In this document: positions 3,565 to 63,650 of the stretch, piece by piece | How positions within the stretch are numbered: position 1 is the first letter of the stretch | Layout of the letters: each line of letters begins with the position of its first letter | NCBI RefSeq assembly: GCF_026210795.1 | Contig: NC_089431.1 | Span: 2,046,001 to 2,110,000, forward strand | Direction: 5' to 3' | DNA: 64,000 nt | From: Rhizophagus irregularis | Taxonomy: Eukaryota; Glomeromycota; Glomeromycetes; Glomerales; Glomeraceae | Made by a program: the position numbers and the translations under genes | Notes under the pieces: generated by a model | The model's database searches: none | What the model was told of the DNA's origin: nothing | The model's input: only the letters and a program-made list of their open reading frames with translations

Positions 3565-4375
3565 TTTTACAGAGCTAAATAAAACTTTCTGTTTATAAAT
3601 AGACGTGTCAAATTCACATGACTGACGCCACACCCTGTTATGAGAATCAAAGTTTTCTAAGCACTAATTAAAATTAGTTTTAAACAAAAGAATAAATACC
3701 TATTAATTAAGAGAAATACTATTCTATTTTTATTTTAATATATGTAAGGCTTGACCTGTCCTATCTAATATTATAAGAGGCCCGATTAAAAGAGAAAATA
3801 CAAAGATAGGGAGAATACTATATATCACATTGGGGATGTGATGTACGGTATCATATAAAAATTTAATATATATTGCGGACGGATCAATTGGAATTTTTGC
3901 CGGATATTTAAAAATTGCAGAGTTTATAATAATTTTTTTTATCATGTAAAATTAATTATATTCGGATTTGAGCTATGTAACGGTTGATTCTTTCTTCTTC
4001 TCATTTAATTATCCGAAAACTTTTAAAATTAGATAATAAATAGTTATATACTTATATTAACATTTGAGCAATACAAATGATTTAAATTAATAAATTATAA
4101 CTTTTAAGAAAGAAATTTTTTTTTCCCTTGTTTAGAAGGATTAATTTATTTTTTGAAAAAAAACTATCTATTTTATGAGAGACAGATATTTAGAGTACTT
4201 TCTCGAAATTTGAAATGAAATTGTCAGAGTTAGAGCTATAAAGTTTGGTTTTTACTAGGAAACTTCTTATAAAGCGAATTTAAACTATAGTAAATTATAG
4301 TTTATTATAGAAAAAATCTCTTAATAAATGATACATAATTTAGTTGATGGAACCCAATATCACGTGATAAAAAAT
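3565..4375. other. Upstream region of RAD17 / 3' flank of DUG2-like gene
   Basis: AT-rich spacer that must contain the RAD17 promoter. A 71-codon frame on the minus strand at 3730-3945 is hydrophobic but matches nothing I recognise. I see no confident regulatory element. Confidence 0.4.
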
Positions 4376-26257: not shown

Positions 26258-26539
26258 TCAAGATATATAATAAATTAAAAAATATTTCAAGTGTTTTTTA
26301 AAACAAATTAAGAAACTCTTTACACAGGTCGAACAGATGTCATTGTCGCAAAATTTGCCTGGAATTTTTCTGGCAAATTGAGAATTATCCCGGTAAATTG
26401 GGGTAAATTGTGTTACAATTTTGGGATAATGGAGGACTTACAATTTGGCAAATTTTGTCAAAATGGCAAAATTCCTACAAAATTCCTAATTCAAATGTTG
26501 AGAAATTTTTCAGTAAATTATCATTAAATTGTGGGAAAT

Positions 26540-26990
26540 TTTAGGCAAATTTTTAGTAATGTTATGCAAACGAAGTGTAAATTGTGGTGAATTTAGTCAA
26601 ATTTTTAGTAATGTTATGCAAACGTAATGTAAATTGTGGTGAATTTTAGGCAAATTTTTAGTAATGTTATGTAAACGAAGTGCAAATTGTGGTGAATTTA
26701 GTTAAATTTTTAGTAATGTTATGCAAACGTAATGCAAATTGTGGTAAATTATAGTGAATTTTTAGTAATTTTATGCAAACGTAATGCAAATTGTGGTGAA
26801 TTGTAGTGTATTTTTAGTAATGTTATATAAATTGTTGAAAATTTAGGTGAATTTAGTCAAATTTTTAGTAATTTTATGCAAACATAATGCAAATTGTGGT
26901 GAATTTTTAGCAATATTAGGCCAATGTTATGTAAATTGTGATGAATTTTTTGTAATGATACGTAAATTGCAAATTTGAAATAAAAACTTT
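26540..26990. repeat. Left subterminal repeats of element A
   Basis: Eight or so imperfect copies of a unit of about 50-65 bp carrying TTTTTAGTAATGTTATGCAA and ACGTAATGCAAATTGTGGTG. Subterminal repeats of this kind are transposase-binding regions in CACTA elements; that role is inferred here. Confidence 0.7.
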
Positions 26991-27364
26991 CCATTGTTGC
27001 ACAATTTACCGGGAAAATTCTGGTAAATTGTGTATTTTTTTGTCAAATTTTGGAAAAATGGACCATTTTACCAAAATTTAACTTTCAAATGCTAGAAAAT
27101 TTTTAGCAATTTTAGACAATTGAGTGACAATTGTTTGACAATTTTTGGACAATTGAGTGTAAATGTAATATTTTTAAGACAATTTCTGACAATTGAGTAA
27201 TAATTAAGCAACAATTTTGTGTAATTTTATACAAATTTTATAACAATTTATTGATTCTAATTTTATTAACAATTTATCTAATTATTCAATTATAACGTGT
27301 AATTAAGTACAATAATGTTAAAAAAAACAAACATCAAAAAAAACAAAAAGTTTTGAAGATTAAT

Positions 27365-28870
27365 CTTCGAAACTCACCAAGCAAGGAGCCAAAGAACTAT
27401 TATCTTGTTACAATAATCTACAAAAAAAGAAAACCATTCAGTTAGAATGTTTCTTAAAGATAAAACAGAAGTTTCGTAACGAAACGTACGAAACTTACCA
27501 TTTCAGAAGCCATATCCAATACCTGAACGTAAAGTAATGGCTTCTATTCAACAATAGTTTTACGAGATTCATGTTTCCTAAGTTAGCTTCCCAGATATCC
27601 CGAACCTACAAAAAAGAAAAGGAACGTTAGTAAACGGTTCCTAATAAAAAAAAATTTAAGTTTCATGATATTTGTCATGAAACTCACCATTTAAACTGAA
27701 GTTTCGAAGTTATACTTCGAAACCTACACGTTATCCAAACCTAAGTTCGAATCTGGAGGGAGGGACCTACAAAAGAGAATAAGAAATGTTAATAAAACAT
27801 TTCTTTAAAAAACAAACTGAAGTTTTGCAACGTTTTTTTTGTTGCGAAACTTACCAAAGCCGTCATTCCGCTCGAACCTACAAAAAAAATAGAAAAGAAA
27901 CGTTAAAAAATGTTTCTAATAATAAAAAAAAAAACACGGTAAGTTTCGTTGCAAACTTACCACATTTTCACTTTCCAATGATACCCGAATTGGAGACCTA
28001 CAAGAAATGAAAAAGTAAAAGAAACGTTAGAACGTTTCTTAATTAAAAAAAACAAAAAAGATAAGTTTCGTTGATGAAATGAAACTTACATTTTTCCGTT
28101 TCAGAATCCTGGAGCACCGGAACTTACAAAAAAAGTAGAAGAAATGTTAGAGAACGTTTCTTAATTAAAAAGAAAATAAAATATTTTAAGTTTCATTAAA
28201 ATGAAACTTACATGTTGACGTTTCGGAATCTTGGAGATACGAACCTACAAAAAAAGTAAAAGAAACGTTAGAACGTTTCTTAATTAAAAAAATATAATAT
28301 AATAAGTTTCGTTAAGTTTCGTTAAAAACGAAACTTACATTTTCCGTTTTAGGAATCCTGGAGCACCGGAACTACCGAACCTACAAAAAAAGTAAAAGAA
28401 ACGTTATAGAACGTTTCTTAATTAAAAAAAATATAATATAAGTTTCGTTAAAATGAAACTTACATTTCCGTTTTGGCCATTAATGAATATTCATGCTGAA
28501 ACTTGGCGTTCTCCTGCACTACAAAAAAGTAAAAGAAACGTTAAAACGTTTCTTAATTAAAATAAAAATATAAATATAATTAAGTTTCGTTAAACTTACA
28601 TTTCCGTTTTAGAATCGAGGAGGGCCATTAACGAATATTCATGCTGAAACTTGGCGTTCTCCTGACCTACAAAAAAAAGTAAAAGAAACGTTAGAACGTT
28701 TCTTAATTAAAAAATAAAAATATAAGAAGTTTCGCTAAACAAACTTACATTTTGCCATTTCGGAAACCTGGCACCGGAATCTACAAAAATAAAGTAAAAG
28801 AAACGTTAAAACATTTCTTAATAAAGAAAAAAATAAAAAAAAAAATAGTTTCGTAAGATAACAAACTTTA
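27365..28870 (-). repeat. Array of about 12 mini-exon/intron-like modules in element A
   Basis: Read on the minus strand, each module has a donor GTAAGTTTCG or GTGAGTTTCG, whose first bases start a hairpin (GTTTCGTT against AACGAAAC). A T-rich stretch follows, then a second hairpin GAAACGTTCTAACGTTTC with a CTAAC branch-point-like loop, then CTTTTTTTGTAG. The stretches between acceptor and next donor are 21-105 nt and more GC-rich. One example: exon 28339-28380 (42 nt) followed by a 94-nt intron 28245-28338. Exon-like pieces share words such as GCTCCAGGATTC and AAACGGAAA, and two contain GAGAACGCCAAGTTTCAGCA. Their lengths are not multiples of three, so a coding role is doubtful. Confidence 0.75.
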
Positions 28871-28916
28871 CCTGACTTCTCCAAATGTAACGATAATTGC
28901 TATACCAACGGGAAAT

Positions 28917-29010
28917 GGGAAAGGTAAGGGGGAAGGACGAGAGAGAGGGAAGTGGGGAGAGAGAGGGAAGGAGAAACGAGAGGGAGGGTGACGGGAAAAT
29001 GGTGAGAAGA
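28917..29010 (+). repeat. Purine-rich tract of element A
   Basis: About 95 bases almost only of G and A (GGGAAGTGGGGAGAGAGAGG and similar), at the promoter-proximal end of the module array. The equivalent in element B is over three times longer. On the minus strand this is a C/T-rich tract, a common fungal transcription-start context. Confidence 0.6.
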
Positions 29011-29061
29011 AGGAAAGAGCAAAATAAACTAAATTAGTTTTTTTTTAAACTCTAAAAAAAA

Positions 29062-29200
29062 ACTGCGGCTGCGGCTGCAATAGTTTATTTTTAGTATTTT
29101 TAGGTTAGTTAAAAAAATGAACTGCGGCTGCGGCTGCAATAGTTTATTTTTAGTATTTTTAGGTTAGTTAAAAAATGAACTGCGGCTGCGGCTGCAGTTT
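29062..29200. repeat. 59-bp tandem repeat with CGGCTG motifs
   Basis: Two full copies and a partial third of a unit starting ACTGCGGCTGCGGCTGCA and continuing AGTTTATTTTTAGTATTTTT. It is the only strongly GC-rich motif in element A. Element B has in its place a palindrome with ACCGCAGCT arms. Confidence 0.7.
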
Positions 29201-29209
29201 AACCAAGTT

Positions 29210-29256
29210 CATGTCACGTACTCACGTGATACACGTGACATGTATTTTATATAAAT
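29210..29256 (+). promoter_or_regulatory. Paired CACGTG palindrome and TATA box, element A
   Basis: CATGTCACGT (29210-29219) pairs with ACGTGACATG (29233-29242), enclosing CACGTG sites at 29223 and 29232. TATATAAAT follows at 29248 and then AGGGGGC. CACGTG is the E-box bound by bHLH factors. The order E-boxes, then TATA, then T-rich run reads as a plus-strand core promoter and recurs in element B. Confidence 0.6.
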
Positions 29257-29378
29257 AGGGGGCTTTTTCCCGAAACTTTTTTTTTTCTTTTTTTATAATT
29301 TTTTCAATTTAATTGATAGATGTATATATATACTTATATATATACATATATATATATCTATCTAATAAACTTTATGAA

Positions 29379-29460
29379 AAGCCCCTCCTCTGTAAACAGG
29401 TAGAGGCCATAAAGTACCTATGAGGGGAGAGCTATGCTGCTCCTCCGCCTGTTTATAATA
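29379..29460 (+). ncRNA. Candidate structured RNA (pseudoknot-capable) in element A
   Basis: CCTCT (29394) and AGAGG (29402) can close a hairpin whose loop GTAAACAGG can pair with CCTGTTTAT about 45 bases downstream, giving a pseudoknot. A further hairpin GAGC...GCTC lies between. The block is nearly identical in element B, but the loop of the second hairpin differs while its stem is kept. It lies 120-200 bases after the TATA box. This is a hypothesis from base-pairing only; I matched it to no known RNA family. Confidence 0.4.
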
Positions 29461-29539
29461 ATAAAAGAAAAAAATTGAGCCTTTCAGTAGTAAGGTTTAG
29501 TATTAAATTAAACAACATATCACAACACATCGTGTTGTT

Positions 29540-29561
29540 ACATTGTTAATATTAACAATGT
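29540..29561. repeat. 22-bp perfect palindrome
   Basis: Arms of 11 bp starting ACATTGTTAAT, with no spacer. An identical palindrome occurs in element B at 37601-37622. It is preceded by a small hairpin, ACAACAC-ATC-GTGTTGT. It may be a binding site for a dimeric protein. Confidence 0.7.
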
Positions 29562-29639
29562 GTTTAATGTTAAATAATGCGTTTGGAATATAAATATTAT
29601 AAATTTAATAATGTCCGTAATTTACAAATAAATAAAAAT

Positions 29640-30570
29640 TATCATCAATTTTAATGTAATTAAGTGTAATGCTACGTTATCCAATGTAATTGTAGTATTT
29701 TTTTGTGTTCTTTAGTGCAATTCCGCGTTTTTTAGTGCAATTCCGCATTTTCTAGCATAATGTTACATTTTCCAGCATAAATAAAAATTATCCTAATAAT
29801 TTTAATGTAATTAAGTGTAATGCTACGTTATTCAGTGTAATTGTAGTATTTTTTTGTGTTTTTTAGTGCAATTCTGCATTTTTTAGTGCAATTCCACATT
29901 GTCTAGCATAATGTTACATTTTCCAGTATAACGCGAAATTTTCTAAAAAATATGATAATTGTGGTACTTTTTAGTGTAATGCTACATTGTCTAGTGTAAT
30001 TTGGTGAAATGCTACATTTTCCAGTGTAATGCTATATTATTGAGCATTTTCCAAAAAAAAATTGTAACATTTTAACATTCTGACGAAAATGAAACATTTG
30101 ACCAAAAAAACATAAAATTTGCTGAAAATATGCAACATTTGACAAAAAATATAGAATTTTCATAAAAAATGCACATTTGCTAGAAAATTGGAATATTTGA
30201 CAAAATTTGATTTTAATTGATAATTGTTACAACAATTTTATGAAATGTTGTTACAATAATATCGCATTGGAGATAAAATGTGGCATTTTCATAAAAATGC
30301 ACCATTTGCAAGAAAATTGGAACATTTGACAAAAAAAGCAAAATTTGATTTTAATGACAATGTTATAACAATGTCACGAAATGTTACGAAATGTTACATT
30401 TGAGATATAATGTAGCATTTTCCCAAAATTTCATAAAATTTGCTAAATCGGACAATGTTGTAACAATGCTATTCCAAAAAATTGCTCAGCGTAATGCAGC
30501 ATTTTCCACAATTTCCCACCATTTACCAGAAAAATGTGGAATTTGCATTTTTTGAATTTTGGACAATGGT
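29640..30570. repeat. Right subterminal repeats of element A
   Basis: Two repeat classes. The first carries GTGTAATGCTACATTTTCCA and TTTTTAGTGCAATTCCGC. The second carries AAAAATGCACCATTTGCAAG and ACAATGTTATAACAAT. Counterparts occur in the same order in element B. Confidence 0.65.
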
Positions 30571-30589
30571 GCCCCTTCGACCTGTGTTA

Positions 30590-33140: not shown

Positions 33141-33774
33141 TAGATGGGTTTCTTAATGTATACTGGAACATATGATATTAATGTATGGAACTGGCTGGAA
33201 TTAACGCATATGCATGTGCATAATTCCTAAACTTAGGCCACCAGATATATGTTAAGTTACCTTGGCTTCACCCCTAACATAAGATGGGGCCTTCATAGTT
33301 TATCATATTAGTAAATCACATGATTGGTAGATCTATTAATAATCTTGATAGTATAATCAGTTACTAGCTCTATTCATTTATAGATCGTATCAGATTGATA
33401 CAATAGCCCTGTTCAATTCTAGATCTGACCGGATTGATCGAAAATTTACACCCTTAAATAATTGGTTGCTGATGCGGTCAGTGGTCAGTCATACCGATCT
33501 ACAAAAATTGGTGTTTTTCCCTGATTACGATCTATATAATAAATGACACATCTACACAGGTCGAACAGATGTCATTGTCGCAAAATTTGCCTGGAATTTT
33601 TCTGGCAAATTGAGAATTATCCCGGTAAATTGGGGTAAATTGTGTTACAATTTTGGGATAATGGAGGTCTTACAATTTGGCAAATTTTGTCAAAATGGCG
33701 GAATTCCTACAGAATTCCTAATTCAAATGTTGAGAAATTTTTCAGTAAATTATCATTAAATTGTGGGAAATTTT

Positions 33775-34300
33775 AGGCAAATCTTTAGTAATGATATGCA
33801 AACGAAGTGCAAATTGTGGTGAATTTAGTTAAATTTTTAGTAATTTTATGCAAACGTAATGTAAATTAAGGTGAATTTTAGGCAAATTTTTAGTAATTTT
33901 ATGTAAACGTAATGCAAATTGTAGTAAATTTAGTCAAATTTTTAGTAATTTTATGTAAACGTAATACGAATTGTGGTAAATTTAGTCAAATTTTTAGTAA
34001 TTTTATGTAAACGTAATGCAAATTGTAGTAAATTTAGTCAAATTTTTAGTAATGTTATGCAAACATAATGCAAATTGTGGTAAATTTAGTCAAATTTTTA
34101 GTAATGTTATGTAAACGTAATGCAAATTGTGGTGAATTATAGTGAATTTTAGTAATTTTATGCAAACGTAATGCAAATGGTGGTAAATTGTAGTGTATTT
34201 TTAGTAATGTTATGTAAATTGTTGAAAATTTAGGCGAATTTTTAGCAATGTTATGCAAACGTAATGCAAATTGTGGAAAATTGTGGTGAATTTTGCATTT
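33775..34300. repeat. Left subterminal repeats of element B
   Basis: About nine imperfect copies of the unit of about 55-65 bp with TTTTTAGTAATTTTATGCAA and ACGTAATGCAAATTGTAGTA, matching the left array of element A. Confidence 0.7.
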
Positions 34301-34679
34301 TTTCGGTAAATGTTAGTTAAATCTTTGAATAATTTAGTGAAATTTAGGATAATTTCGGACAATTGAGTGAAAATGTTTTACCGATTTTGGACAATTGAGT
34401 GTAAACGGTATAAAATGCAACATTTTCGAGACAATTTAGTGAAATTTTGCAATAATTTTGGACAATTGTGTGAAATTTAGTAATAATTTTAAACAATTTA
34501 GTGTAAACGCTGTGACAATTTAAAACACTGATTTAATAATTTTACATAATTTATTACAATATTATTTATTAACAAATGCACAATTATTATTTAACGATGA
34601 GAATCTATATTGATCTATATTCATCAGATATCCGATGATCTATGGATAATCCACACCTCTAATTCATTCATGTATCAAA

Positions 34680-36840
34680 TGTCCAGTGCCGAAGTAAAAG
34701 CCGGTGAAAACTTAAAAAAGAAAAAAATGAAACATTAATATACGTTTCGTTGAAAAAAATCAAAATAAAAAACATTTCGAAGTTATATACCTTTGAAATG
34801 TTAAATTCCATACAAGGATCGCCGAACCTAAAAAAAGAAAAAACGAAACGTTAATATATGTTTCGTTGAAAAAAATCAAAATAAAAGATATTTCGAAGTA
34901 TAATATACCTTCAAAATATTGAATTCCTATGTCCATGAGCCACCGAACTAAAAAAAGTTAAAACATTTCGAAGGTATAACAAACATTTCAAGTATACCTT
35001 CGAAATGTTCCCCACTCCATTTCAGTTTTCCCTTTCTCTTTCCCCTTTCGTCTTCACCTTTCCCTTTCATTTTTCCGTTCCTTTAACCTACAAAAAAAAA
35101 AAATAAACGAAACTTTAAACAATGTTTTGTTACATAACAAAAATCCAATAATTTCGAAGTTCTAATACCTTCGAAATGTTGAAACGGCATCCTGGAACCT
35201 TAAAAATGAAAACCGAAAGTTAGTAAACGTTTCATTGTAAATAAAACAAATAAACTTCGAAGGTTCTTATATTTACCTTCAAAATTCTTCCGTACAGAAG
35301 GCGACCGGAAAATAAACTACAAAAATAAAGATAAACGAAACGTTAGTAAACGTTTACTAACATTTCGTTAAACAAAAAAAAAAACAAAATTGATTCGAAG
35401 GTAAATATTTACCTTCGAAATCTCGTCCTGGAGGCGAAGCCATGGATCTATAAAAAAAAACTGAAACGTTAGTTAACGTTTCGTAGAAAAAATTATTAAC
35501 AAAAAAAACGAAAATATTACCTTTCACCCAAAAATTTCGTCCGGCGTTACTACAAAAATAAGAAAAGAAACGTTAGTTAACGTTTCTTAAAAAAATAAAT
35601 AAAAATAAAGTTTCGCAACACAATGTTAAAACTTCCGTTCGTTTCTTTTAAAAAAAATCCAAACGTCCGGAATCAAAAGGAAAAAAGAAACGTTAGTATC
35701 GTTTCAAAAAAAAATTAATAAAATAAAGTTTCGCAACACAATGTTGCGAAACTTACCGTTCAAGTTCGAAATTCATCATCCAAACGTCCGGAATCTAAAA
35801 AAAGGAAAAAAGAAACGTTAGTATCGTTTCTTTAAAAAAAAAATTAATAAAATAAAGTTTCGCAACACAATGTTGCGAAACTTACCGGTTCGTTTCGAAA
35901 TTCATCATCCAAACGTCCGAATCTAAAAAAAAGAAAAAAGAAACGTTAGTATCGTTTCTTTAAAAAAAAAATTAATAAAATAAAGTTTCGCAACACAATG
36001 TTGCGAAACTTACCGGTTCATTTCGAAATTCATCATCCAAACGTCCGGAATCTAAAAAAAGGAAAAAAAAGAAACGTTAGTATCGTTTCTTTAAAAAAAA
36101 AATTAATAAAATAAAGTTTCGCAACATAGCATGTTGTTTTAAAACTTAAACTTACGGCTCATTTCGAAATTCATTATCCAAACGTCCGGAACCTACAAAA
36201 GTAAAAGAAAGAAACGTTAGTTAATCGTTTCTTTTAATAAAAAAAAAATAATTAATTAAGTTTCGCAACGATTCTTTGCGAAACTTACCGTTCGTTTCGA
36301 AATACATTATCCAAACGTCCGGCGTTCCTACAAAAGAAAAGGAAAAGGAAACTTAGAAACGTTTCCTTACAAAAAATTAAAAAATTTTTTTTAAAAAAAG
36401 TTTCGAAGCGAAACGCTTCGAAACTTACCTTTCGGTTTCTCATTTCCCAAAGTCAAACCACCGAAAAATCTATAAAAAAAAAAGAAAGGAAACGTCAGTA
36501 TGTTTCCTAAAAAGAATTTAGAAAAAAAGTTTCGAGGCGAACACCTCGAAACTTACCATTTCGTTTTCTAAGTCGAGTACGCCAAAAAAACCTACAAAAA
36601 AAAAGAATTATTGGAAACGTTAGTAATGTTTCCTAAATTAAAAGATTTTTTTAAAAAAGTTTCAAGGCGAACGCCTCGAAACTTACCGTTTCGTTTTTCC
36701 AAGTTGAATACGGCGAAAAGACCTATAAAAAAAAGAAGATATAGGAAACGTTAGAAACGTTTCCTAAAAAATAAAAAAAATATTAAAGTTTCGAATCGAA
36801 CAATTCGAAACTTACCCTTTTGTTTTTCTGAAAGGAAATT
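34680..36840 (-). repeat. Array of about 17 mini-exon/intron-like modules in element B
   Basis: Same design as in element A. In one clean module, the exon-like piece 35886-35922 (37 nt, TTTGGATGATGAATTTCGAA core) is followed on the minus strand by a 91-nt intron 35795-35885. That intron contains donor GGTAAGTTTCGCAAC, a hairpin with TTGCGAAAC, a second hairpin with TACTAAC at 35817-35823, and acceptor CTTTTTTTTAG about 23 nt beyond the branch-point A. Left modules use GTATA-type donors with a CATTTCGAAG hairpin, while right modules use GTAAGTTTCG. Three consecutive units are almost identical. Exon-like pieces of 37-38 nt would break a reading frame. Confidence 0.75.
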
Positions 36841-36854
36841 TCCGATATTTCTAA

Positions 36855-37200
36855 TTTACGGTAAAAGGGGAAGGGAAGGGAAGGGAAAAAGAAGAACGAA
36901 AAGGGAAAGGGGAAAACGAAAGGGAAAAGGACGAAAAGGGAGGAAGAACAAAAGGGGAAAGGGGAAAATGAAACAAAAAGGGAGGAGGGAACGAAAAGGA
37001 AAGGGGAAATGGAACGAAAAGAACGAAAGGAAAAGGGAAATGGAACGAAAAGAACGAAAGGAAAAGGGAAATGGAACGAAAAGGGAGGGGGAGAACGAAA
37101 AGGAAAGGGGAAATGGAACGAAAAGGGAGGGGGAGAACGAAAGGGAAAAGGGGAAGGGGAAGGTGAGAGAAACAGGGAAGGTGAAATGGCGAAAGAAGGG
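36855..37200 (+). repeat. Purine-rich tract of element B
   Basis: About 345 bases of GGGAAAGGGGAAATGGAACG-type repeats, almost free of pyrimidines on the plus strand. It lies between the module array and the promoter-like block. Frames of 60-78 codons here (Lys/Glu/Gly/Arg-rich) are composition artefacts. Confidence 0.75.
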
Positions 37201-37218
37201 GTAAGTAAAAGCCTGAGA

Positions 37219-37337
37219 AAAAAAAATTAAGCTTTTGCTAAAAAAAGCTTAATTTTTTTTTTCATTATACCGCAGCTAAGCTGCGGTAATTATTAAGTAA
37301 TATCACGTGATGCACGTGATATAAAATTTATATAAAT
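37219..37337 (+). promoter_or_regulatory. Nested palindromes, CACGTG pair and TATA box, element B
   Basis: Three palindromes stand in series: AAATTAAGCTTTT-type arms at 37219-37260; TACCGCAGCT/AGCTGCGGTA at 37268-37288; and TATCACGTG/CACGTGATA at 37301-37321. TATATAAAT follows at 37329, then AGGGG. The CACGTG-TATA order and spacing match element A. Plus-strand transcription toward the conserved RNA block is inferred. Confidence 0.6.
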
Positions 37338-37447
37338 AGGGGCTTTTTCCCCGAAATAATTTTTTTTTTTTATTATAATTTTTTGATAGATGTATATATA
37401 TACTTATATATATACATATATATATATCTATCTAATAACTTTACGAA

Positions 37448-37531
37448 AAGCCCCTCCTCTGTAAACAGGTAGAGGCCATAAAGTACCTATAGGGGGAGAG
37501 CCACCTTGCTGCTCCCTCCGCCTGTTTATAG
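37448..37531 (+). ncRNA. Candidate structured RNA in element B
   Basis: Counterpart of the block at 29379. The CCTCT/AGAGG hairpin, the loop GTAAACAGG and the downstream partner CCTGTTTAT are all kept. The second hairpin (GGGAGAGC...GCTCCCTCC) has a longer stem and a different loop than in element A, which is compatible with selection on pairing. Unproven. Confidence 0.4.
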
Positions 37532-37600
37532 TGACAAAAAGAGGGAGTCCTTCAGTAGTAAGGTTTCGTATATATAAATTAAACAACACATCGTGTTGAT

Positions 37601-37622
37601 ACATTGTTAATATTAACAATGT
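37601..37622. repeat. 22-bp perfect palindrome in element B
   Basis: Same ACATTGTTAAT arms as at 29540-29561, in the same relative position after the structured block and the ACAACACATCGTGTTG hairpin. Confidence 0.7.
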
Positions 37623-37689
37623 GAATTTAATGTTAAATAATGCGTTAGAATATAAATATTATAAATTTAATAATGTCTGTAATTTTACA

Positions 37690-38720
37690 AATAAATAAAA
37701 AATTATCTAATGTAATTAAGTGTAATGCTACGTTATCCTGTGTAATTGTAGTATTTTTTTGTGTTTTTTAGTGCAATTCCGCGTTTTTTAGTGCAATTCC
37801 GCATTTTCTAGCATAATGTTACATTTTCCAGTATAACGCAAAATTTTCTAAAAAATATGATAATTGTGGTACTTTTTAGTGTAATGCTACATCGTCTAGT
37901 GTAATTGCGGTATTTTTTAGTGTAATGCTACATAATCTAGTATATTGCTACATTTTTTAGTGTAATGTGGAATTTTCCAAAAAATGTGATAATTGTGATG
38001 CTTTTTAGTGTAATTTGGTGAAATGCTACATTTTCCAGTGTAATGCCATATTATTGAGCATTTTCAAAAAAAAAATGTAACATTTTAACATTCTGTCGAA
38101 AATGAAACATTTGACCAAAAAAACATAAAATTTGCTGAAAATATGCAACATTTGACAAAAAATATAGAATTTTCATAAAAAAATGCACCATTTGCCAGAA
38201 AATCGGAATATTTGACAAAATTTGATTTTAATTGACAATGTTATAACAATTTTATGAAATGTTGTTACAATGATATCACATTGAAGATAAAATGTGGCAT
38301 TTTCATAAAAATGCACCATTTGCAAGAAAATTGGAACATTTGACAAAAAAAAAGCAAAATTTAATTTTAATTGACAATGTTATAACAATTTTATGAAATG
38401 TTATTACATTTGAAATAAAATGTGGAATTTTCATAAAAATGCACCATTTGCAAGAAAATTGGAACATTTGACAAAAAAAAAGCAAAATTTGATTTTAATG
38501 ACAATGTTATAACAATGTTATGAAATGTTACGAAATGTTACATTTGAGATATAATGTAGCATTTTCCCAAATTTTCATAAAATTTGCTAAATCGGACAAT
38601 GTTGTAACAATGCTATTCCAAAAAATTGCTCAGCGTAATGCAGCATTTTCCACAATTTCCCACCATTTTCCAGAAAAATGTGGAATTTGCATTTTTTGAA
38701 TTTTGGACAATGGTGCCCCT
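37690..38720. repeat. Right subterminal repeats of element B
   Basis: Same repeat classes as element A's right arm. A unit of about 115 bp with AAAATGCACCATTTGCAAGA and GACAATGTTATAACAAT is present in about three tandem copies between 38170 and 38540. Confidence 0.65.
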
Positions 38721-38782
38721 TCGACCTGTGCTAGCGTCTGCACATTTTTTGCGTTAAACTTTTTGAAGTTCTAACTTTTACC

Positions 38783-46559: not shown

Positions 46560-48691
46560 ATGTCTAGAAACCTTGCTAGAAGAGGTGGCGGCAGCTATAA
46601 CCCTAACAGTAATAAGGCTGCTCGTCAAGAAAAGAAAAATAATAAAAAACAACTCTCCGATAACTCTGGTTCTGATAGTGATAATAATTCTCAAAAACGT
46701 TCCCGTATACTTACAAAAGACTCCATGGATGAAGACTATGAAGATTTCGTCGCCGACGCGCTGGCTGACGGTGGTTTAGTTGGTTCAACTTCGACCGCTA
46801 TTCCTCAACAAAATAATTCCCGCAGCACCGCCCAAGAAAATACTCAAGCTTCTACCCCGAATAATTCTGCTGCGCCTACTGCGCCTGGCCAAGACGCGTT
46901 TTCTGGAGCTAACGCGTCTATTCATGCACCTCGAAACAAAGAAAATAACTCATCCCCTAACGCGTCCCCTAATATGGACGAGAATGATGGTACATCGCCC
47001 GATCAGGCTGTCGATCCCTCCCCCACCATTACTATTAATCGTCAAGATTTCCTGGCTGCGGCTGCGCCCAACTCCGCTCCCCAAACTCTAGAGAAACTTA
47101 AAACTAATAAGGCAATCATTGATGCCGTTAACAATTTGTTTTTAGAAACATATGAATCATACACCGGTCGGGCTCGTATGACTGGTTCAGGGGACGCTAA
47201 ACGTCTCATCATTCACTTCCATACTGCGGAGGCTCGTGACTTGTGTATTGGTTCCACACACTCCGATTTTCCGGACCTACAATTCCACCTGTACGATCCC
47301 AAACAGCTCCGGTCCGATGAAGACCTCCGTGCAATTCAAGTCACAGATATTCCGTTTTTCATTACTAAACCCCAACTACAATCCTATTTCAAGAAATTTG
47401 GCAACCTGCTATCCCTTCATCTCTATTCAAGGAAAGGTGCCAAAATGCAACAAGCCCGCATCGTCTATGATCATGCCGATGCCATCGCCCGTTTTACCAC
47501 CCAATGGGCAGTTTATTGTTTTTCCACCTGTTTGCGCGTTACTCCCTGTCACTATTCAGTGAAACAAAAAGCTGCTCGTCGAGAATTTGTTGCTGTCCTC
47601 TCTGGACTCCCTGCTAACACTAAAGATATCCATCTCGCTCCGTTAGTTAAAGAGCATGGAGCTAAAGCTATTAACATTCCTCTTTCTCTAAACTCCTATA
47701 AACCTAAACCATGGGCTTATGTTACTTTCAATTCACAAACGACAATGGATGCCGCTATGGAACAAACAATTGGATTCCATGGTCGTACTCTTTGGTGGGG
47801 TACTTCCAATAATTCGAAAGCCCTCTGCCACAGATGTGGTAAGCTCGGTTGTGCTCCTACCTCCTGCCCGCTCAATCAACGCCGCGGACGCTCACGTACA
47901 CGTGACCCTGTTGCCGCCCTTAAAAAACGTTTCAACATTGGCCATAGACCTGCTCAACAAAGAGCTCCGCGTAATAATTCTCGGTCTCGCTCTCGCTCTA
48001 AATCCCGAGATCGTTCTGCCTCTGCTCAACGTCCGAATTCAAACCCCAACCGCTCTAATAATAATAATAATAGCTCTAACAATACTAAACCCTCCTCCTC
48101 TGGTCCAGCTCACTTCTCCTCAACTGCTCATGGACGCACGCCTTCCAATACTCGAAAAGGCAAAGATCGATCTGTTTCCTTTTCGTCCAATGGTCGTGCT
48201 CCACTCCTGGATCCGAATTCTCCTAATGCTCTTGAGGCTGCCCTTAAGATTCTTAATGTTTTAAAGAATCTTCAACAAGATGTTGCTCGTGTGGAATCCC
48301 GCATTTCAAATCTTGAACTTAACAATCAACGGCTATCTGCCATTGAAGCCCATTTAGGCATCAATCCTCCCTCCACTCCTGTTATCAATTCTGAACCTGA
48401 TCGGATGGAAGAAGACCCTCCTGAAACTACTGGTACCTTAATCCCACATCCTAATGCTCCCTTATCTTCTGGTGCAAAGAAATCCTCTTCCCCCAAATCT
48501 ACACTCAATAATGTTCCGCACTCGCCTCCACTTCCACTCCTAACCCTTCCCCGCAAGACGAATTGAACTCGGTTATTCAAGATCAAAAAGCGATTAAAGA
48601 TACCTTACAATCGCTCACTGGTTCCATCCAAGGTTTTATTGCTTCTCTTGGTGGTTCTCCCTCCGAACGAGCTTCTGCTCTTTCGCAATAA
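46560..48691 (+). CDS. LINE ORF1: RRM-like nucleic-acid-binding protein with zinc knuckle
   Basis: ATG 46560 opens 668 codons to TGA 48566. The N-terminus is Ser/Asn-rich and disordered. About residues 175-420 contain two RRM-like folds (RAIQVTDIPFFITKPQLQSY; REFVAVLSGLPANTKDIHLA). Next comes a zinc knuckle, CHRCGKLGCAPTSC, with spacing CX2CX4CX4C, so Cys replaces the usual His. An Arg/Ser tract (NNSRSRSRSKSRDRSAS) and a coiled coil (NLQQDVARVESRISNLELNN) follow. Just before the stop, another frame is open and continues as QDELNSVIQDQKAIKDTLQS to TAA 48691, so the last 50-60 residues were probably lost by a frameshift near 48515. ORF1 proteins coat LINE RNA. Confidence 0.85.
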
Positions 48692-48738
48692 CTGATTTCT
48701 CACCTCCTTTCCCCGTACTTTATTATCATTGTGTTCTA

Positions 48739-51700
48739 ATGATTGACAATTTTAATTATGATACGTTTGTTCGGAACTCACCCAACCCTGTAGATACTTA
48801 TAATTTTTCAGAACATGAATCTTTATTTACTACCTTAAATTCTTCTCCTATCCCCAATTCCTTTAATATTTCATCCTTTAATATTAATGGCCTTCGACAT
48901 AATAGTCAAGTTAAAATTGAACAAATTTTAAACTTTTTCAACCTCAAACATATTTCCTTTGGTGGTATCGTAGATACCCATTTATCCCCCAAACAAATTC
49001 ATTTTTTATCTAAACGCCTTCCTAATTATACTGTCTTTTCCTCTGACATGATAAAACTAAACAAGTCAAATCTACTGGTGGCGTTTCCCTTTTTATTGAA
49101 AAATCTCTTGCTTCTCATGTACAAGATTTTGTTTCACATTCCTCACGTATTTTATCTGTTGACCTTTATTTTAAAGGCAACATTAAATTGCGTATTTTTG
49201 TTATATATATCCCTCCTATTTCCGATTCTAAATTACGATCTGAAACCATTGATCTCCTTTTACAATTGTTAGTGCATACTAAACAACAAAATTTTTATCA
49301 CGCCATTTGTGGCGATTTTAATATGCATTTAGACATTTATTACCCTATTTATTTTAACCGCCCTTCTGTTGCTTCTCAACGGTCTTATCGTTTGTTGCAT
49401 CATCTTTTATCTCATGGTTATGAAGAAACCATTCCTGCTAATGCTTCTGATTCACTAGGCACCTTCCACCGTGATGACCAGATTACTCGCATAGACTATG
49501 TTTGGTCCTGCCCGATGCTAAAAAGCTTTGCTCTCACTTCCTACATATTCGACGCCCATGATACCTGCTCTTCTGATCACAATCCTGTCATCACGTATTT
49601 TGATGATTCACTCTTGGCTGCATCTATCAAGGTTGCTCGTGCTAAACAACTTCAACGTCGAACTCGCCGCGTTTTCAAATTTGATTCAGTCACTACTCAA
49701 CAATGGGAATCCTTTTCCACTCACACTGACTCTCTTTGCGATGTTCTTCCTTCTACTTTTTCAACATGGCACATCAATCATCAATGTGAATACTTGCATT
49801 CTCGTATCGTGAAAGCTGCTAATGCTTTTCTTCCATCTGTCATGGTCGGTAATCAACACACACCTACGGTGCCTAAAGATTTGGAAGCTTTAACTCAACA
49901 TTATCGTTTCCTCAGCCATCTTTTGCATTCGATACGCTTATTGTGCAAATATCCTTCTACATATTTTAATAGATATGAACATGTTTGGTCCATACATTTC
50001 ATTCGACTTCAAAAAATTCTTCATCTTTATAAGAAGGTTATCCCCTCTCCCCCTATTTTACCTACTTCTTTAGCCACATGTAGGCAAGACGGTTTTATTT
50101 CTTTATTAGAATCCTTAAAGATTATTTCCAGTGCCCTTTATGGCCTCCTTCTTCTCAAAGAAAAAGATTTTCAAGATTCTTCTATTCGTGCCAAAGTGGA
50201 TGATAGGGACAACAATTTTGAATCTGATATTTCCTCATTCATTAATTCAGCTCTCTCAAGGACTCGACGTCGTATCACATTATATCGAATCTTTATTGAC
50301 CACCCTACACAACCTAAACTCCTAACGAACCCGCATGATATTGATGACGCTGTTATCAACCACTTCCAGAATTCCGTACCTATTAAATCATCTCCTCCTG
50401 ATAATATTTCAGCTCTTCCTGAAAAATGGTCTTCTGCTTATCGCCCTATGGATGATGTGAATTCTTCTATTTATGATTCTTTGTTGGATCCTCCTTCTCT
50501 TGATGAATGGTTGTCTACGGTCTCTTCTATGCCTAACGACAAAGCTCCTGGTCCTTCTATGATTACTTATGAGATGCTTAAGCATCTGGGTTCCAGCGCT
50601 TCAGCTTTGGTCTTAATCCTGGTCCAGTCATGCTTCCATACTGCAGATATTCCTGATTTATGGCATCAAGCTATGGTTTTCCCTATCCCTAAACCTCACG
50701 AATGGAAATGTCAACTCAAGAATACAAGACCTATTACTTTACTTGAAGTTATTAGGAAATCTTTGGTCAAACTCTTTTATAATCGTCTCGCTTCCATTTT
50801 GGCTTCGAATGAAGTTCTCAAAGGAGGAAACTTCGCCGGTCTCCCTGGTGGTTCTTGTCGTGACCCTTTTGTCGTCCTGGAATCTATTATCCATGATGCT
50901 CATGTCAACAAATCGCCGCTTTGGATCCTTTCACAAGATATTTCAAAGGCTTTCGACTCGGTTGATCTCAAGATGTTGCGTTTTGCTTTAGAACGCATTA
51001 AACTTCCTGCTTCTGCTACCAAGTTTATTTTATCCCTTTTTATGAAACGCTCTAATCGCGTTTTTACTGCTCATGGAACTACACCTTCTTACCGCGTTCG
51101 TATTGGTATAGATCAAGGCGAAGTTATCTCTCCCTTACTCTGGGTTATATATATGATCCTTTATTCGACTGTTCTTAAGAATGAAATGATGGATCCGTAT
51201 ATACTTCATGCTCCTTCTTTATCTAATCCCTTGGCTGAGACAAATTCAGATGGATTACGCATTAACAACTTGGTCTTTATGGACGATTCCACTTTAATTT
51301 CGTCATCTAAATCTGGAATGGAATCGATGCTTTCTATTACGGAAGAATTTTATCAGATTAATAATACTTCCGCTAATCACAACAAATATGTTTTAATTAC
51401 TAATTCGTTGCCTCCCACTTCAGCTCCTTCGCCTTTTCCAGTCGTGTTTGACTTGCAATTATCTGGACTGAACAAAGTACCTTCCATTTCTATTGTGCCT
51501 ATTTCCATGCGAATAGTTCTTTCTGCTTCCCTGGGCTGTGGTTCAATGTCGCTTGATCTCGTGATTTTGTCAGAAAGCAAGTTGCTCGATGTAACTCGCG
51601 CTACCGTTCGTCCTGCCAAATTATCTGCTAAGCAAGTAGTTTATTTACACAACACTATCCTTATTCCGAAATTGGAATATCGCATGCAAGTACACACACT

Positions 51701-54347
51701 CTCGAATCTGAATGTCGTCGGCAACCAGCAGTATCCGTTCCTTGGTTAAACATAAGGCCAATTTTTCACGTGTACTCCCGATTCTATTTTGTTTTTATCT
51801 CAAGGCTTGGGATTGATTAATTTATTTTTTCATCAATCACAAACACATTTAACTAATTTGTTTTTATTAGCTAATTCTTCTTCTTTTTTTGAAAAAATTT
51901 AAAAATTTTTATTTTTATATAGATTACGCTTAATTCAATTTTCTTTTTTGATTCCCATTTCTCCATTGTTAGTTAAAGATTGGACTTTATGGTCTAAACT
52001 TTTCGCTTTTAAACAGGATTATATCGCTTGCACTATCGCCCTCCTGACCACCACTCCTTTCAAATTGTCGTGTTCACGACTTTCAACTTTGCCTGACCTT
52101 ACTATATCTGATGGTCATACGCCTTTATTTGACGTTATGACTCCAAAAATTTTTATATCTTACTTTCGACGTCTTAGAAGTTTGCAACTTTATTACCTAT
52201 CTCAATTCATCACGCCTCAAGGAACCCATATGATCACTTGGAATGTTTATTTATCCAATCTATTAAGTAGGAAAGGCCATCGAGTCCTCCCGCATAAATG
52301 GTTCAATGACATCCACCAACGCGTCACTGTTCCGAATTCCAATTCTCTGCTCTTGGATCAATTTTCTTCTGATGCTATCCCTTCGAACATTGATTTGGCT
52401 CCAGCCTTTGGTTCCTCTAGAAAATCCATGAAACGGATCGACTTTAAACGAAGATGGTTCTCCTCTTTTTGGAAAACAACTTAGCAAACAACAATATTCC
52501 TGCAAGATTGTCCATTGGACCTCTGATTGTGCGACTCGACCTAATGATGTTATCACGCTTACTCCGTCCCGGTTGTTCTAAACACGTACCGGTTACCCAT
52601 ACTAAAAACAACCCATCAGATGTTACTCCTCTATGTATCATCCCAAAACTTTCTCCTCTTAGATCTTTACTTCTCCCAACAACGCAGGAGCGTATTAGAC
52701 ATGACACCACCACTATTACTTCTCCTTATACTTGGGCGGACCTTGACGAGATTGTAAGATCCTATTATGGTCGTTTGGTCATTCTACCTAATTTTTCACA
52801 AGAAGATGTGGTTACTCTCCCTTCTCCTTCTCCTTCTCCCTCCTTGGCTTAGCGCTCTCTTGCTTTTGCTGCCTCACCGTTAGCAACTCCTCCTGATAAT
52901 CATTATTGTTTTTATACTGATGGTTCTTTAATTAACCTCGCACTCCCGATGTTTCTATGGGTTGGTCGGTACAAGTCCTGATGGCGCTGGTTTTTTCCAA
53001 TCTATCGCTGCTCACGCTCATGGAATTTTTCACAATTGGCCTTCTTCTACAAGAGCTGAAATCGCTGCTATACATGCTGCTCTTACAGTCACTCCTCCGT
53101 CTTCAACGGTCACTATTCATACTGACTCTCAATCTGCCATAGATGGTCTTCGTCTATGTGCTACCTTTTCTTATTCCAATAGTAGGCTTTATTACAAGAC
53201 CACCAATTTTGAACTTTGGGCTATTATTGAACATCTCATTTCCTCCAAATCTTTATCCGTCACGGCTGTTAAAGTGAAAGGTCACTCTGGTAATTTCTAT
53301 AATGACTACGCGACTCTCTGGCCAACTCTCGCGCATACTTCTTCTTCAGCAATTCTTCTTTCTGATCTGGATCAAGTATCTCCTCACGATTTCTTATTAA
53401 AATATGATGATATTTTATGCGAATCCAACCCACGACGCCTATTTAAGCAATATTCGCAAATGCTGTGGATGCATAGATTAACGCGTTTATCGCATTTTAA
53501 CTTTACCATTGCTTTATCCTCTATCTCAGATTTCGTGATTGATTGGGATCTTACCTGGTTCTCGCTAAATTCTGAACCTCAGCATGATGCTTCATTTACT
53601 CGCGCTCATGCTTCCCTTCATCGCACCTTCAAATTCAAACTCTTTTTGGAAGATTTGCCTACCTTGGAACATCTTAAAAGAATTCGCCCGGACTTGTATA
53701 TTGACATCTTATTGTGTCGTTCGTGCCTCGACTCCAAGGAAGATTTCATGCACTTGTTTATGTGCAAATGTAGACGAATCGCTATGGAACAGATTCTCCT
53801 CTCCTACCAACATCACTTTATCAACAAACTTCAAGAAGCTGGTGATCTCGTTAAGAAAGATCCCTCTTTAATTATTAACAAATTTAAATCTCTTCCTTGT
53901 TGGTCCTTTTCTTCTTCAAATTGGACTTCATATAGCCTTGTCCGTGGCTGCCTTCTGAAATCTTTTGTCGAATTTTTTGATGAACTTTCTATTCCACGTA
54001 ACTCTGCGATGAAGGTTATCTCTGCTATCCACAATCACTTTATCCAAAAAATCAGAAAACGAATTTGGCTTCCGCGCTCCTATGATAAATCTAAATGGGA
54101 AGACGCGATGAATATTACTCATAAACTCAAACTCTCTCGGCCTTCTAATTTGCCAAAGTCCACATACTTACCCTTCTCAACTTTACCTCCTCCGACCCTT
54201 TCCGATGCCGCACGTGACTCCGACGTTGATTATTTAAAGAACTCGATGAAATATGGTTTGCCTTGGTTTAATCACTATTCGGGTTTTATGGGTCGTCTAA
54301 CGGTGCAACTTACTAACAGCTTTAGCAGGGTGGTGTGTCGATTTTAA
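48739..54347 (+). pseudogene. LINE ORF2: APE endonuclease, reverse transcriptase, RNase H (frameshifted)
   Basis: Starts MIDNFNYDTFVRNSPNP 48 bases after ORF1. The endonuclease has SSFNINGLRHNSQVKIEQIL, CGDFNMHLD, RIDYVWSCP and SSDHNPVI. The reverse transcriptase has NTRPITLLEVIRKSLVKLF, GLPGGSCRDPF, LSQDISKAFDSVDL and LVFMDDSTL (FMDD catalytic box). A zinc-knuckle-like CPGCSKHVPVTH comes from a neighbouring frame. The RNase H has FYTDGSLIN, RAEIAAIHAAL and HTDSQSAIDGL. Its last motif, GHSGNFYNDYAT, has Thr where the catalytic Asp is expected. Frameshifts lie near 49070, 51710, 52480 and 52935, and a stop is at 52852. The C-terminal region after RNase H is intact (CRSCLDSKEDFMHLFMCKCR). The coding potential of all domains is visible but no continuous protein can be made. 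Confidence 0.9.
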
Positions 54348-55756: not shown

Positions 55757-56796
55757 ATTGTCAATTTTAATTTGGAGGTATATCACCTCTGAAATTTTAA
55801 TTGCCAGTCCGTCATTCAACAGTACAAAATTAATTTGTAGATCTGACGCATATTTTATATGAATTACATTAATTGGCATATTTTAATGTTGATTTTGTCC
55901 CACAAAGTCACGTTTAAATATAACAATAACTCACTAATCAATAACATTAAACATGAATAAGCCACAAAAAAAAATTTTTTTATTGTTCGATATAAAATTT
56001 AACAAGTTTACCTTGGAGGAAGTTACCATTCCACCTTATATTTTAGTTAAGGTAAGATTTTTTATATATGAATTTTGCAAATTTTTACAAGGTTTTTTTT
56101 ACATTATTGAAAAATATATATTATTTTCTTTACCAAATTAACAAAATAACAAAAAAAAAATATTTTTTTTTATTTTTCTTTTTAGTTTTTTTTTGGCACA
56201 CCATGATCTTACCAGTTTTGGAAAACACACTTAGGTAATGTAATACCTTCTTCTAGTAAATTTTTGAAGTATTTATGTTGTTGTGATGTATTTTTAAAAT
56301 AGTGCAAAAACCATTCCAGAGCAATAGTATTTAATATATAAAAATCTGTCAAAATTAATTATAGATTGCTGATCATTTTGTACTGTTGAGTGGCGGACTG
56401 GCAATTAATTATTTTTAAATAAAAAAAAATTTTTTTATATATTATAGGCTTTGGATGGAACCTATCGATGAGTTTGAAATTCAGAGGTATGCTTATCTCC
56501 GAAACTTAATTTATTTAAAAAAAAAAATAATAATTTTTTATTTATATTATATAGGTTCCGGATGGAACCTATTGATGATTTTGAAATTTAGAGGTATATT
56601 AACTTCCGAATCTTTAATTTATTTTAAAAAAAAATAATAATTTTTTATTATATTATATAGGTTCCAGATGGAATCTATTGATGATTTTGGAATTCAGAGG
56701 TATACTTACCTCTGAAATTTAATTTATTTTTTAAAAAAAAAATTATTATTTTTTATATTATATAAGTTCCAGATGGAACACATGAGGAATATTCTG
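55757..56796 (+). repeat. Tandem array of 106-bp units, exon-like core, interrupted by a MITE
   Basis: Units start at 56448, 56555, 56661 and 56766 (period 105-107). A first, partial unit at 55757-55800 was split by the MITE 55801-56404. Each unit reads TTATATTATATAG, then about 38 nt of GTTCCGGATGGAACCTATTG and TTTTGAAATTCAGAG, then GTATACTTACC. It therefore looks like an acceptor, mini-exon and donor on the plus strand, with introns of about 67 nt. The last unit is cut by the MITE at 56799. Confidence 0.7.
55801..56404. mobile_element. 604-bp MITE with TTAA flanks
   Basis: The left TTGCCAGTCCGTCATTCAAC pairs with the right end (inverted TTGCCAGTCCGCCACTCAAC), a repeat of about 29 bp continuing AGTACAAAAT. 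TTAA lies outside both ends (55797, 56405). Starting TTGCC and the TTAA context match the element at 45552-46113. It is inserted in the first unit of the tandem array. Confidence 0.75.
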
Positions 56797-62359: not shown

Positions 62360-63650
62360 TAAAGCTCCGCACGTTGAGTTTCGAGCAGCAATCTGGCTCG
62401 GCTTGGCTTGAAAAAAAAATTCTGGCTGAGCCGGAATGAGCGAGCCATAAAAAATTTCGGCAAGCTAAAGAATGAGCTGCCAAGCCATTAAAAACCTGGC
62501 TCGAGCCGAAGTAGGCTTGAGCTTTATCTTCAGAAAAATGTTTCGCAACGTTTTTTATTAAAACATTGAAAAAAAATGTTGCGAAACGTTTTTTTTTAAA
62601 TATATTATTAAGAAAAACGTTTTCGCAACGTTTTTTAATTAAAACATTGAAAAAAAATGTTGCGAAACGTTTTTTTCTAACATAATACTTTGAAAAAAAC
62701 GTTTTCGCAACGTTTATTTATTAAAAATATCGAAAACCGTTGTGAAACATTTTTTTTAAATATAATATTTTGAAAAAACATTTTCGCAACGTTTTTTATT
62801 AAAATATTGAAAAAAATGTTGCGAAACGTTTTTTTCTTAAATATATTATTACGAAAAAACGTTTTGCGCCATTTTTTAATTAAAACATTGAAAAAAAAAC
62901 GTTGCAAACCATTTTTTTCTAACATAATACTTTGAAAAAAATGTTTTCGCAATGTTTTTATTAAAACATTGAAAAAAAATGTTGCGAAACGTTTTTTTTA
63001 AAATATATTATTAATAAAGAACATTTTCACAACGTTTTTTTATTAAAAATATCGAAAAACGTTGTCAAACGTTTTTTTTTAAATATAATATTTTGAAAAA
63101 ACATTTTCGCAACGTTTTTTATTAAAATATCGAAAAAAAATGTTGCGAAACGTTTTTTTCTTAAATATATTATTACGAAAAAATGTTTCGCGCCGTTTTT
63201 TAATTAAAATATTGAAAAAAAATGTTGCGAAACATTTTTTTTAAATATATTATTAATAAAAAACGTTTTCGCAACGTTTTTTTATTAAAAATATTGAAAA
63301 AAACGTTGTGAAACGTTTTTTTTAAATATAATATTTTGAAAAAACGTTTTTGCAACGTTTTTTATTAAAATATCGAAAAAAAACGTTGCGAAACATTTTT
63401 TCGTAATAATATATTTAAGAAAAAAATGTTTCACAACGTTTTTTTCGATATTTTACAAGCCAGCTCGAGCCTTTTGAGCTGAGCTTATTACCGGCTTGAG
63501 CTTTTTGAGCTGAGCCTATTACCACTCAGCTCGAGCTCTTTTCGAGCTGGTTACGATTTGCCACTGAGCCAATTTAATCATGGCTCAGTTCGGCTCAGCT
63601 TGAAAAGCTCGAGCCAGCTCACGAGTCGGCTCGGCTCATGCGGAGTTTTA
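62360..63650. mobile_element. 1.29-kb hAT-type non-autonomous element with palindromic tandem array
   Basis: Flanked by GTGAAGAG (62352-62359, 63651-63658). The inverted ends are TAAAGCTCCGCA and TAAAACTCCGCA. GC-rich inner arms (GGCTCGGCTTGGCTTG; AGCTCGAGCC) frame an A/T-rich core of about 11 tandem units. It is inserted in an exon of the hAT relic, perhaps mobilised by a related hAT transposase. There is no coding capacity. Confidence 0.85.
62535..63455. repeat. About 11 copies of an 80-bp self-complementary unit
   Basis: Each unit contains ACGTTTTCGCAACGTTTTTT and, in inverse orientation, AATGTTGCGAAACGTTTTTT, joined by ATTAAAACATTGAAAA and spaced by TAAATATATTATTA. Every unit can fold on itself and on its neighbours. 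The GTTTCGCAAC/GTTGCGAAAC arms equal the donor-side hairpin arms in element B (for example 35860-35882). Confidence 0.8.

Follow-up and report, generated by a model that had tools for sequence, protein, structure and literature searches.

The analysed window, a stretch of 64,000 nucleotides of the Rhizophagus irregularis genome (C3:2046001-2110000), contains a 5,176-bp element, referred to here as element B, in which a chain of very short exons and structured, intron-like units is arranged on the minus strand. The original prediction, made from this DNA alone, had placed about 17 such modules inside a transposon. Indeed, TIRs and a CTA target-site duplication delimit element B, and 17 units were located between positions 36815 and 34711, of which 15 have both GT and AG intact, one has no acceptor and one has no donor. 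A second member of the same family, element A, has the same build and the same intron grammar but different exons. The features of both elements are as follows (window positions):

33555..38730, minus strand (sense): element B, non-autonomous, CACTA-type, carrying the array; CACAGGTCGAA TIRs, CTA target-site duplication
38708..38730, minus strand: TIR on the promoter side (C3:2084708-2084730)
37763..38527, no strand: subterminal repeats on the promoter side
37330..37700, minus strand: promoter-like block, with a TATA-like sequence CTATTTATATAA and a CACGTG pair at the array side
36850..37210, minus strand: C/T-rich leader upstream of exon 1
36723..36815, minus strand: intron 1, 93 nt
36592..36686, minus strand: intron 2, 95 nt
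36470..36556, minus strand: intron 3, 87 nt
36328..36428, minus strand: intron 4, 101 nt
36193..36288, minus strand: intron 5, 96 nt
36052..36155, minus strand: intron 6, 104 nt
35923..36013, minus strand: intron 7, 91 nt
35795..35885, minus strand: intron 8, 91 nt, with a 37-nt exon (35886-35922) upstream
35671..35756, minus strand: decayed unit 9, donor kept, acceptor gone
35550..35636, minus strand: decayed unit 10, acceptor kept, donor gone
35448..35520, minus strand: intron 11, 73 nt, donor GTAATA
35317..35412, minus strand: intron 12, 96 nt
35199..35276, minus strand: intron 13, 78 nt
35088..35168, minus strand: intron 14, 81 nt; an intron with the same ends occurs in gene models P0017 and P0022
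34948..34997, minus strand: unit 15, 50 nt, donor within a long palindrome extending into the exon
34828..34908, minus strand: intron 16, 81 nt
34711..34790, minus strand: intron 17, 80 nt
34545..34710, minus strand: terminal exon with two AATAAA signals (34550-34555 and 34565-34570); predicted exon end
33758..34503, no strand: subterminal short tandem repeats (52-bp and related units)
33555..33577, plus strand: TIR on the 3' side of the array (C3:2079555-2079577)
26323..30586, minus strand: element A, TTA target-site duplication, 11 introns at 27418-28871

Each unit of array B is composed, in order, of a donor at a hairpin, a T-rich stretch, a second hairpin containing the branch sequence (present in most units, not in all), a T-rich tract and an AG. 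The donors are of the types GTRAGT, GTAAAT, GTAATA or GTATAT-like, and the exons between introns 1 and 8 measure 35-41 nt. The module given as an example in the original prediction, a 91-nt intron (35885-35795) with a 37-nt exon (35922-35886), is exact. At the downstream end of the array, the first part of the terminal exon recurs in many copies. At the upstream end, a promoter role is inferred for the block at 37330..37700: the region at ~37382-37832 has a mean identity of 0.99 across all six close group B copies, no comparable identity peak was seen in groups A, D and E, and a genome search with the block gave 85-100% identity among the 40 of 137 candidates scored. The promoter-like blocks of both elements (37330-37560 and 29230-29440) also contain an imperfect inverted repeat (GGGGCTTTT ... 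AAAAGCCCC), which flanks a TA-rich stretch and, judged by eye, adjoins the TATA-like sequence and the CACGTG motifs.

Elsewhere in the window, a LINE-like element of higher GC content is found on the plus strand (46560-54347); it matches RVT_1 and RNase H and, below threshold, an endonuclease, and an open reading frame with an RRM match lies ahead of it. On the minus strand, a 559-aa open reading frame (1954-3633) matches the Rad17 P-loop and, below threshold, nSTAND3.

A search of the genome (146,748,485 bases in 32 contigs) with the CACAGGTCGAA end motifs yielded 84 left and 77 right copies, and none with the reversed-pattern control. A right end was found at most 20 kb from the left end for 64 of the 84 left ends, with spans of 4.0-5.7 kb (41 pairs), 6.2-7.0 kb (3), 7.9-9.5 kb (15) and 13-17 kb (5). 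Among the 41 short pairs, 38 complete elements were examined; all 38 have 7-16 called introns between their ends, and 34 have identical 3-bp target-site duplications. A transposase match was detected in longer elements with the same ends. In brief, the protein of one such element (L049) matches Transposase_21 (tnp2; PF02992, E=8.9e-10). Among the 107 of 690 candidates scored, 13 genomic matches to this protein have at least 74% identity, the following one having 56%, and 9 of the 13 fall within TIR pairs of 8.0-9.1 kb. The 15 long elements include 9 with a Transposase_21 match, 3 with an array instead (at the places of L005, L008 and L021) and 3 in which neither was seen. No Transposase_21 match lies inside the 38 array elements, one match beginning in the end repeat of L025, and no array was seen in the 5.4 of 8.4 kb of L049 that were read. 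L025 (G000:C4:3842248-3846928) is apparently an array element nested in a transposase-bearing copy of its own family, with an outer TIR pair of 13.8 kb. The family thus has a TIR beginning with CAC, a 3-bp target-site duplication, subterminal repeats and partners with the same ends that encode Transposase_21, as CACTA/EnSpm transposons do. Since 9 of the 15 longer elements encode this transposase and the 38 array elements lack it, the array elements are read as non-autonomous members of a CACTA (EnSpm/CMC) transposon family of R. irregularis, and the array as their cargo.

The intron grammar was scored with a chain model of donor, branch point and acceptor, whose matrices were derived from arrays A and B themselves. 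On the minus strand it called 8 introns in element B and 11 in element A; the plus strand gave none, and it called at most 2 in any of 20 dinucleotide shuffles of each element; in the whole window, 23 of the 26 high-scoring introns fall within these two arrays. Other arrays of the same grammar, for which a search had been proposed as a check with the original prediction, are numerous: all 48 fetched loci (L001-L048) carry 7-16 introns on one strand and 0-1 on the other, against 0-2 in three shuffles of each. Four of the 48 are duplicates (L001 is array B of the window; L003, L006 and L007 repeat L045, L030 and L035), so that 44 other places are represented. Twenty of these loci (L029-L048) were chosen by length from the list of paired TIRs; 11 of them are absent from the matches listed by the array search (40 of 576 candidates scored), and all 11 carry 7-12 introns. 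After removal of duplicates, the 46 loci contain 508 introns (471 distinct) with a mean length of 91 nt (s.d. 7.7). Among the 508, the donor is GTAAGT in 367 and GTGAGT in 60, the last exon base is G in 435, the acceptor is GTAG, TTAG or ATAG in 495, and the distance from branch point to acceptor is 22-29 nt in 473. These introns therefore have the GT donor, branch point and AG acceptor, at spliceosomal spacing, of U2-type introns. The exons have a median length of 36 nt (398 of 462 intervals; the 64 intervals of at least 130 nt were excluded as probably concealing missed introns), and only 104 of the 398 lengths are divisible by three, in agreement with the original prediction that exon parts are not multiples of three.

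Because the scorer had been trained on the arrays of the window, counts anchored on the hairpins only, with splice sites not required, were also made. Donor hairpins are preceded by GTA or GTG in 383 of 404 cases, compared with 28 of 197 for a control (AGTTT outside arrays), and branch hairpins are followed within 32 nt by a pyrimidine-YAG in 314 of 376 cases, compared with 108 of 513. The claim that splice signals recur in register is borne out by both the chain scorer and these counts. Of the 471 distinct introns, 377 have a donor stem and 448 a branch stem, and the mean folding energies are -12.0 kcal/mol for the donor region and -8.0 kcal/mol for the branch region, versus -3.3 and -2.0 kcal/mol in one shuffle. 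A simple tandem repeat was rejected, since the signals stay in register while the exons of A and B differ. The window contains no Rfam match at gathering scores, and no tRNA was found in it.

Two further repeats were noticed in the window. A second, unrelated array of about four units lies on the plus strand (56405-56790); it has an acceptor-like TATATTATATAG, an exon-like part that in most units begins with GTTCC(A/G)GATGGAA, and a GTAT-type donor within a palindrome like AGAGGTAT..ACCTCT, with no clear CTAAC branch point. An 81-bp tandem repeat of inverted repeats (TTTCGCAACGTTTT ... CGTTGCGAAACG) occupies 62532-63444, and no donor/branch grammar was seen in it.

Conservation of the splice signals was measured on matched dinucleotides in pairwise alignments below 5% divergence, in which the comparisons are not independent of one another. 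This count replaced an earlier one by site class in a multiple alignment (acceptor AG 0.050, hardly below exons at 0.075), which suffered from unequal CpG content between the classes and from misaligned T-runs. The donor GT was lost in 15 of 1504 comparisons, versus 84 of 2268 for exon GT and 211 of 2153 for other intron GT; the branch AA in 12 of 1410, versus 383 of 8307 for exon AA and 463 of 13153 for other intron AA; and the acceptor AG in 82 of 1504, versus 389 of 2263 for exon AG. Changes at these three signals are thus about 3-5 times rarer than at the same dinucleotides in exons. Against this, other intron AGs are kept as well as acceptors (lost in 68 of 2045), the AA at donor positions +3/+4 (lost in 33 of 1154) is kept hardly better than other intron AA, and the donor differed in all of the five most divergent comparisons. 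Counted per site over 66 reference units, the donor is variable in 9 of 66, compared with 14 of 81 exon GTs (p=0.65) and 35 of 99 other intron GTs (p=0.002), the branch point in 3 of 60 compared with 57 of 366 (p=0.03), and the acceptor in 13 of 66 compared with 33 of 108 (p=0.16). Variants common to more than one copy affect 6 of 158 splice sites versus 38 of 440 (p=0.05; p=0.10 when only variable sites are considered). The original prediction had named free drift of these signals as an argument against itself: pairwise, they do not drift freely, and per site the difference is weak, reaching significance at the branch point and, at the donor, only relative to other intron GTs. Taken together, the conservation counts are moderate evidence that splicing is maintained.

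Furthermore, covariation was examined in 74 distinct 29-nt donor hairpins, the selection of which fixed the outer six pairs. In these hairpins 96.3% of cells pair, and 90 stem cells are changed on both sides, versus 40.2+-4.3 in shuffles (0 of 500 as high) and at most 33 when the register is slid; the covariation score is 0.329 versus 0.202 (0 of 500). The six pairs with double changes are inner pairs. Two of the five measures do not rise above shuffles: how many pairs show a double change (438 of 500 shuffles as high) and how many further pair types occur (426 of 500). Overall, the donor stem is maintained. Its wobble pairs favour GU over AC by 55 to 31 (p=0.013 assuming independence, which these copies do not have), whereas branch stems favour AC over GU by 83 to 47, which counts against an RNA-level reading there; since the two stems point in opposite ways, wobble asymmetry was dropped as proof of RNA-level selection.

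Such a structure might also be expected if the repeats acted as DNA, as palindromic binding sites or structural repeats, the intron look being left over from a captured gene. Subterminal repeats that bind proteins are a known feature of CACTA elements, palindromes occur at most donors (377 of 471 distinct introns), and AC is not rarer than GU in the branch stem. Yet palindromes alone would require no GT ahead of the donor hairpin (seen in 383 of 404), no pyrimidine-YAG after the branch hairpin (seen in 314 of 376) and no strand-specific order; the donor stem favours GU, and the transposase-bearing L049 has no array in the 5.4 of 8.4 kb read. This explanation is therefore considered quite unlikely. 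The introns could otherwise belong to a device for spreading introns, or a source of introners, from which hairpin introns are inserted into host genes, as fungal introner-like elements are symmetrical, hairpin-forming introns according to the available part of PMC8469720. Here, by contrast, introns multiply as tandem exon-intron cassettes and with the whole transposon, and the three strong intron candidates of the window outside the arrays have no hairpins (array-derived matrices may miss host introns). No copy inserted singly into a host gene was seen in the window, and spreading appears very improbable.

Open frames cover 0.58 of the length of the joined exons, compared with 0.555 in exon shuffles, and 27 of 46 loci lie above their own shuffle mean; of the 66 distinct exon indels, 55 have lengths that are not divisible by three; and the variable columns by codon position in two terminal type-A exons (7 sequences, the exon pair having been obtained from 7 of 11 loci) number 10 of 63, 7 of 63 and 6 of 62. 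The frame and codon constraint of a protein-coding gene is thus not seen. On the other hand, 32 hypothetical proteins match two spliced translations (16 for each), the names shown being all from R. irregularis, and an exact spliced origin in the examined loci was found for 5 of the 32: OCT59_000984 has 5 of 5 introns identical to those predicted; OCT59_007829 has 6 of 9 as predicted, with one skip from a predicted donor to a later predicted acceptor; and OCT59_008614 (5 of 7), RIR_jg6779 (7 of 11) and OCT59_019713 (6 of 9, its first intron being unreliable) each have one skip between predicted sites. The first intron of P0026 is a mapping artefact caused by taking the earliest ATG. The OCT59 annotation was built with Illumina reads and BRAKER2 and with Nanopore cDNA, as stated in the available part of PMC10234402. 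The published gene models agree with the predicted junctions and constitute independent, if indirect, support for them. This support is limited because gene finders need an open frame; the models may be partly ab initio, as their exon skips keep a frame open.

These proteins raise the possibility of a transposon-carried protein-coding family, in which mini-exons of lengths not divisible by three would rotate the frame and exon skipping would diversify a small protein. Besides the 32 predicted R. irregularis proteins, this idea is favoured by the shared ends of the first 16 (8 begin with MAIIVTFG and 8 end in FRYWIWLLKWLL), by several type-A exons without stops in all three frames, and by the open frame of L031, which has 165 aa versus a shuffle mean of 74. 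It is opposed by the open fraction over the 46 loci, which stays near that of shuffles, by a stop in one frame of type-B exons (judged by eye), by the 55 of 66 exon indels with lengths not divisible by three, by variation that is no higher at third codon positions than at the others in the terminal type-A exons of 7 sequences, and by the absence of any Pfam family at cutoff in the 10 of 32 models scanned. A protein-coding family is accordingly judged unlikely, and a mostly non-coding joined RNA is favoured. The statement of the original prediction that a non-coding RNA is likelier than a protein stands insofar as a protein is the less likely product, with the qualification that annotations do hold hypothetical proteins made from these exons. 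Hypothetical proteins of AM fungi can therefore be transposon-borne intron arrays, of which annotators should be warned. A search with the joined exons of a single copy, L016, gave no spliced retrocopy: none of the 69 matches (40 of 72 candidates scored) spans two exons, and one extends a few bases past a junction.

On balance, the array is probably an RNA gene carried by a transposon, spliced and for the most part non-coding, with splicing as such being maintained. It would be an RNA polymerase II unit composed of the promoter-like block, the C/T-rich leader, the cassettes and a last exon with polyadenylation signals. Its 7-17 cassettes, each a mini-exon with a two-hairpin spliceosomal intron, would have been multiplied by tandem duplication. 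The spliceosome would take out one intron after another, and the two hairpins could pack the donor and the branch point of each short intron close together. Copies would retain the capacity for splicing better than they retain the content of their exons; if splice signals are kept while exons decay, being spliced would most likely be the source of the benefit. This benefit could consist in RNA stability, export or escape from RNA surveillance, and the element looks built for splicing and not for encoding a protein. A transposon with the act of splicing as conserved cargo would represent a new interaction between selfish DNA and the spliceosome, and perhaps a route to escape from RNA-based silencing.

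One specific form of this benefit, which we regard as rather improbable, is that the array could be a splice shield against small-RNA silencing: selection would make it spliced often, and exon sequence would be free to drift. The idea derives from the 398 exons (median 36 nt), for which only about 40% of the 24-nt pieces of the joined RNA lie inside one exon; the other ~60% would cross a junction and so correspond to no stretch of the DNA or of the nascent transcript. Small RNAs derived from the mature RNA would then guide silencing poorly to the transposon, and the splicing of so many structured introns during transcription could hold nuclear silencing complexes away. Nuclear RNAi can be impeded by introns: in C. 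elegans, a target without introns no longer needs Aquarius/EMB-4 for silencing (available part of PMC5554785). In R. irregularis, small RNAs derive from young transposons, mostly LINE and Gypsy, and AGO and RdRP genes are expanded in AM fungi, no RdRP protein having been detected in spores (available part of PMC8647823). Given these small RNAs and the expanded Argonautes, the shield could be tested with existing RNA data.

Among known systems, the micro-exon genes of schistosomes likewise have many tiny exons and variable exon use in models. They encode secreted proteins and their exon lengths are in frame, whereas most exon lengths of the arrays are out of frame and the exons vary by frame-breaking indels. 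SP7-like effectors are also found in R. irregularis and have repeats and an intron, but they are proteins with one conserved intron before the first repeat, and the available part of their description (PMC11333574) contains no two-hairpin intron array; an SP7-like effector gene was rejected on account of this different architecture. Fungal introner-like elements, or symmetrical stwintrons (Hypoxylaceae, Capnodiales), share short, multiplying spliceosomal introns with inverted-repeat hairpins, and are integrated singly at new gene positions (available part of PMC8469720); the introns described here, by contrast, alternate with mini-exons of their own in a tandem array inside a transposon and carry two distinct hairpins, at the donor and at the branch point. 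No description of such arrays was found in the literature, as judged by titles and abstract openings and with subscription papers mostly outside coverage, and the main texts of two papers on R. irregularis transposable elements (PMC8647823, PMC11075540) contain no words beginning with splic- or intron-.

In summary, membership in the CACTA group is ordinary and the intron-array cargo is, as far as our searches go, undescribed. The array elements share with non-autonomous CACTA/EnSpm (CMC) members a TIR beginning with CACAG, a 3-bp target-site duplication, subterminal repeats and Transposase_21 (PF02992) partners. Such members usually carry deletions or captured gene pieces; the array elements differ from them by a structured intron chain, located behind a promoter-like block, in 38 of 38 complete copies examined.
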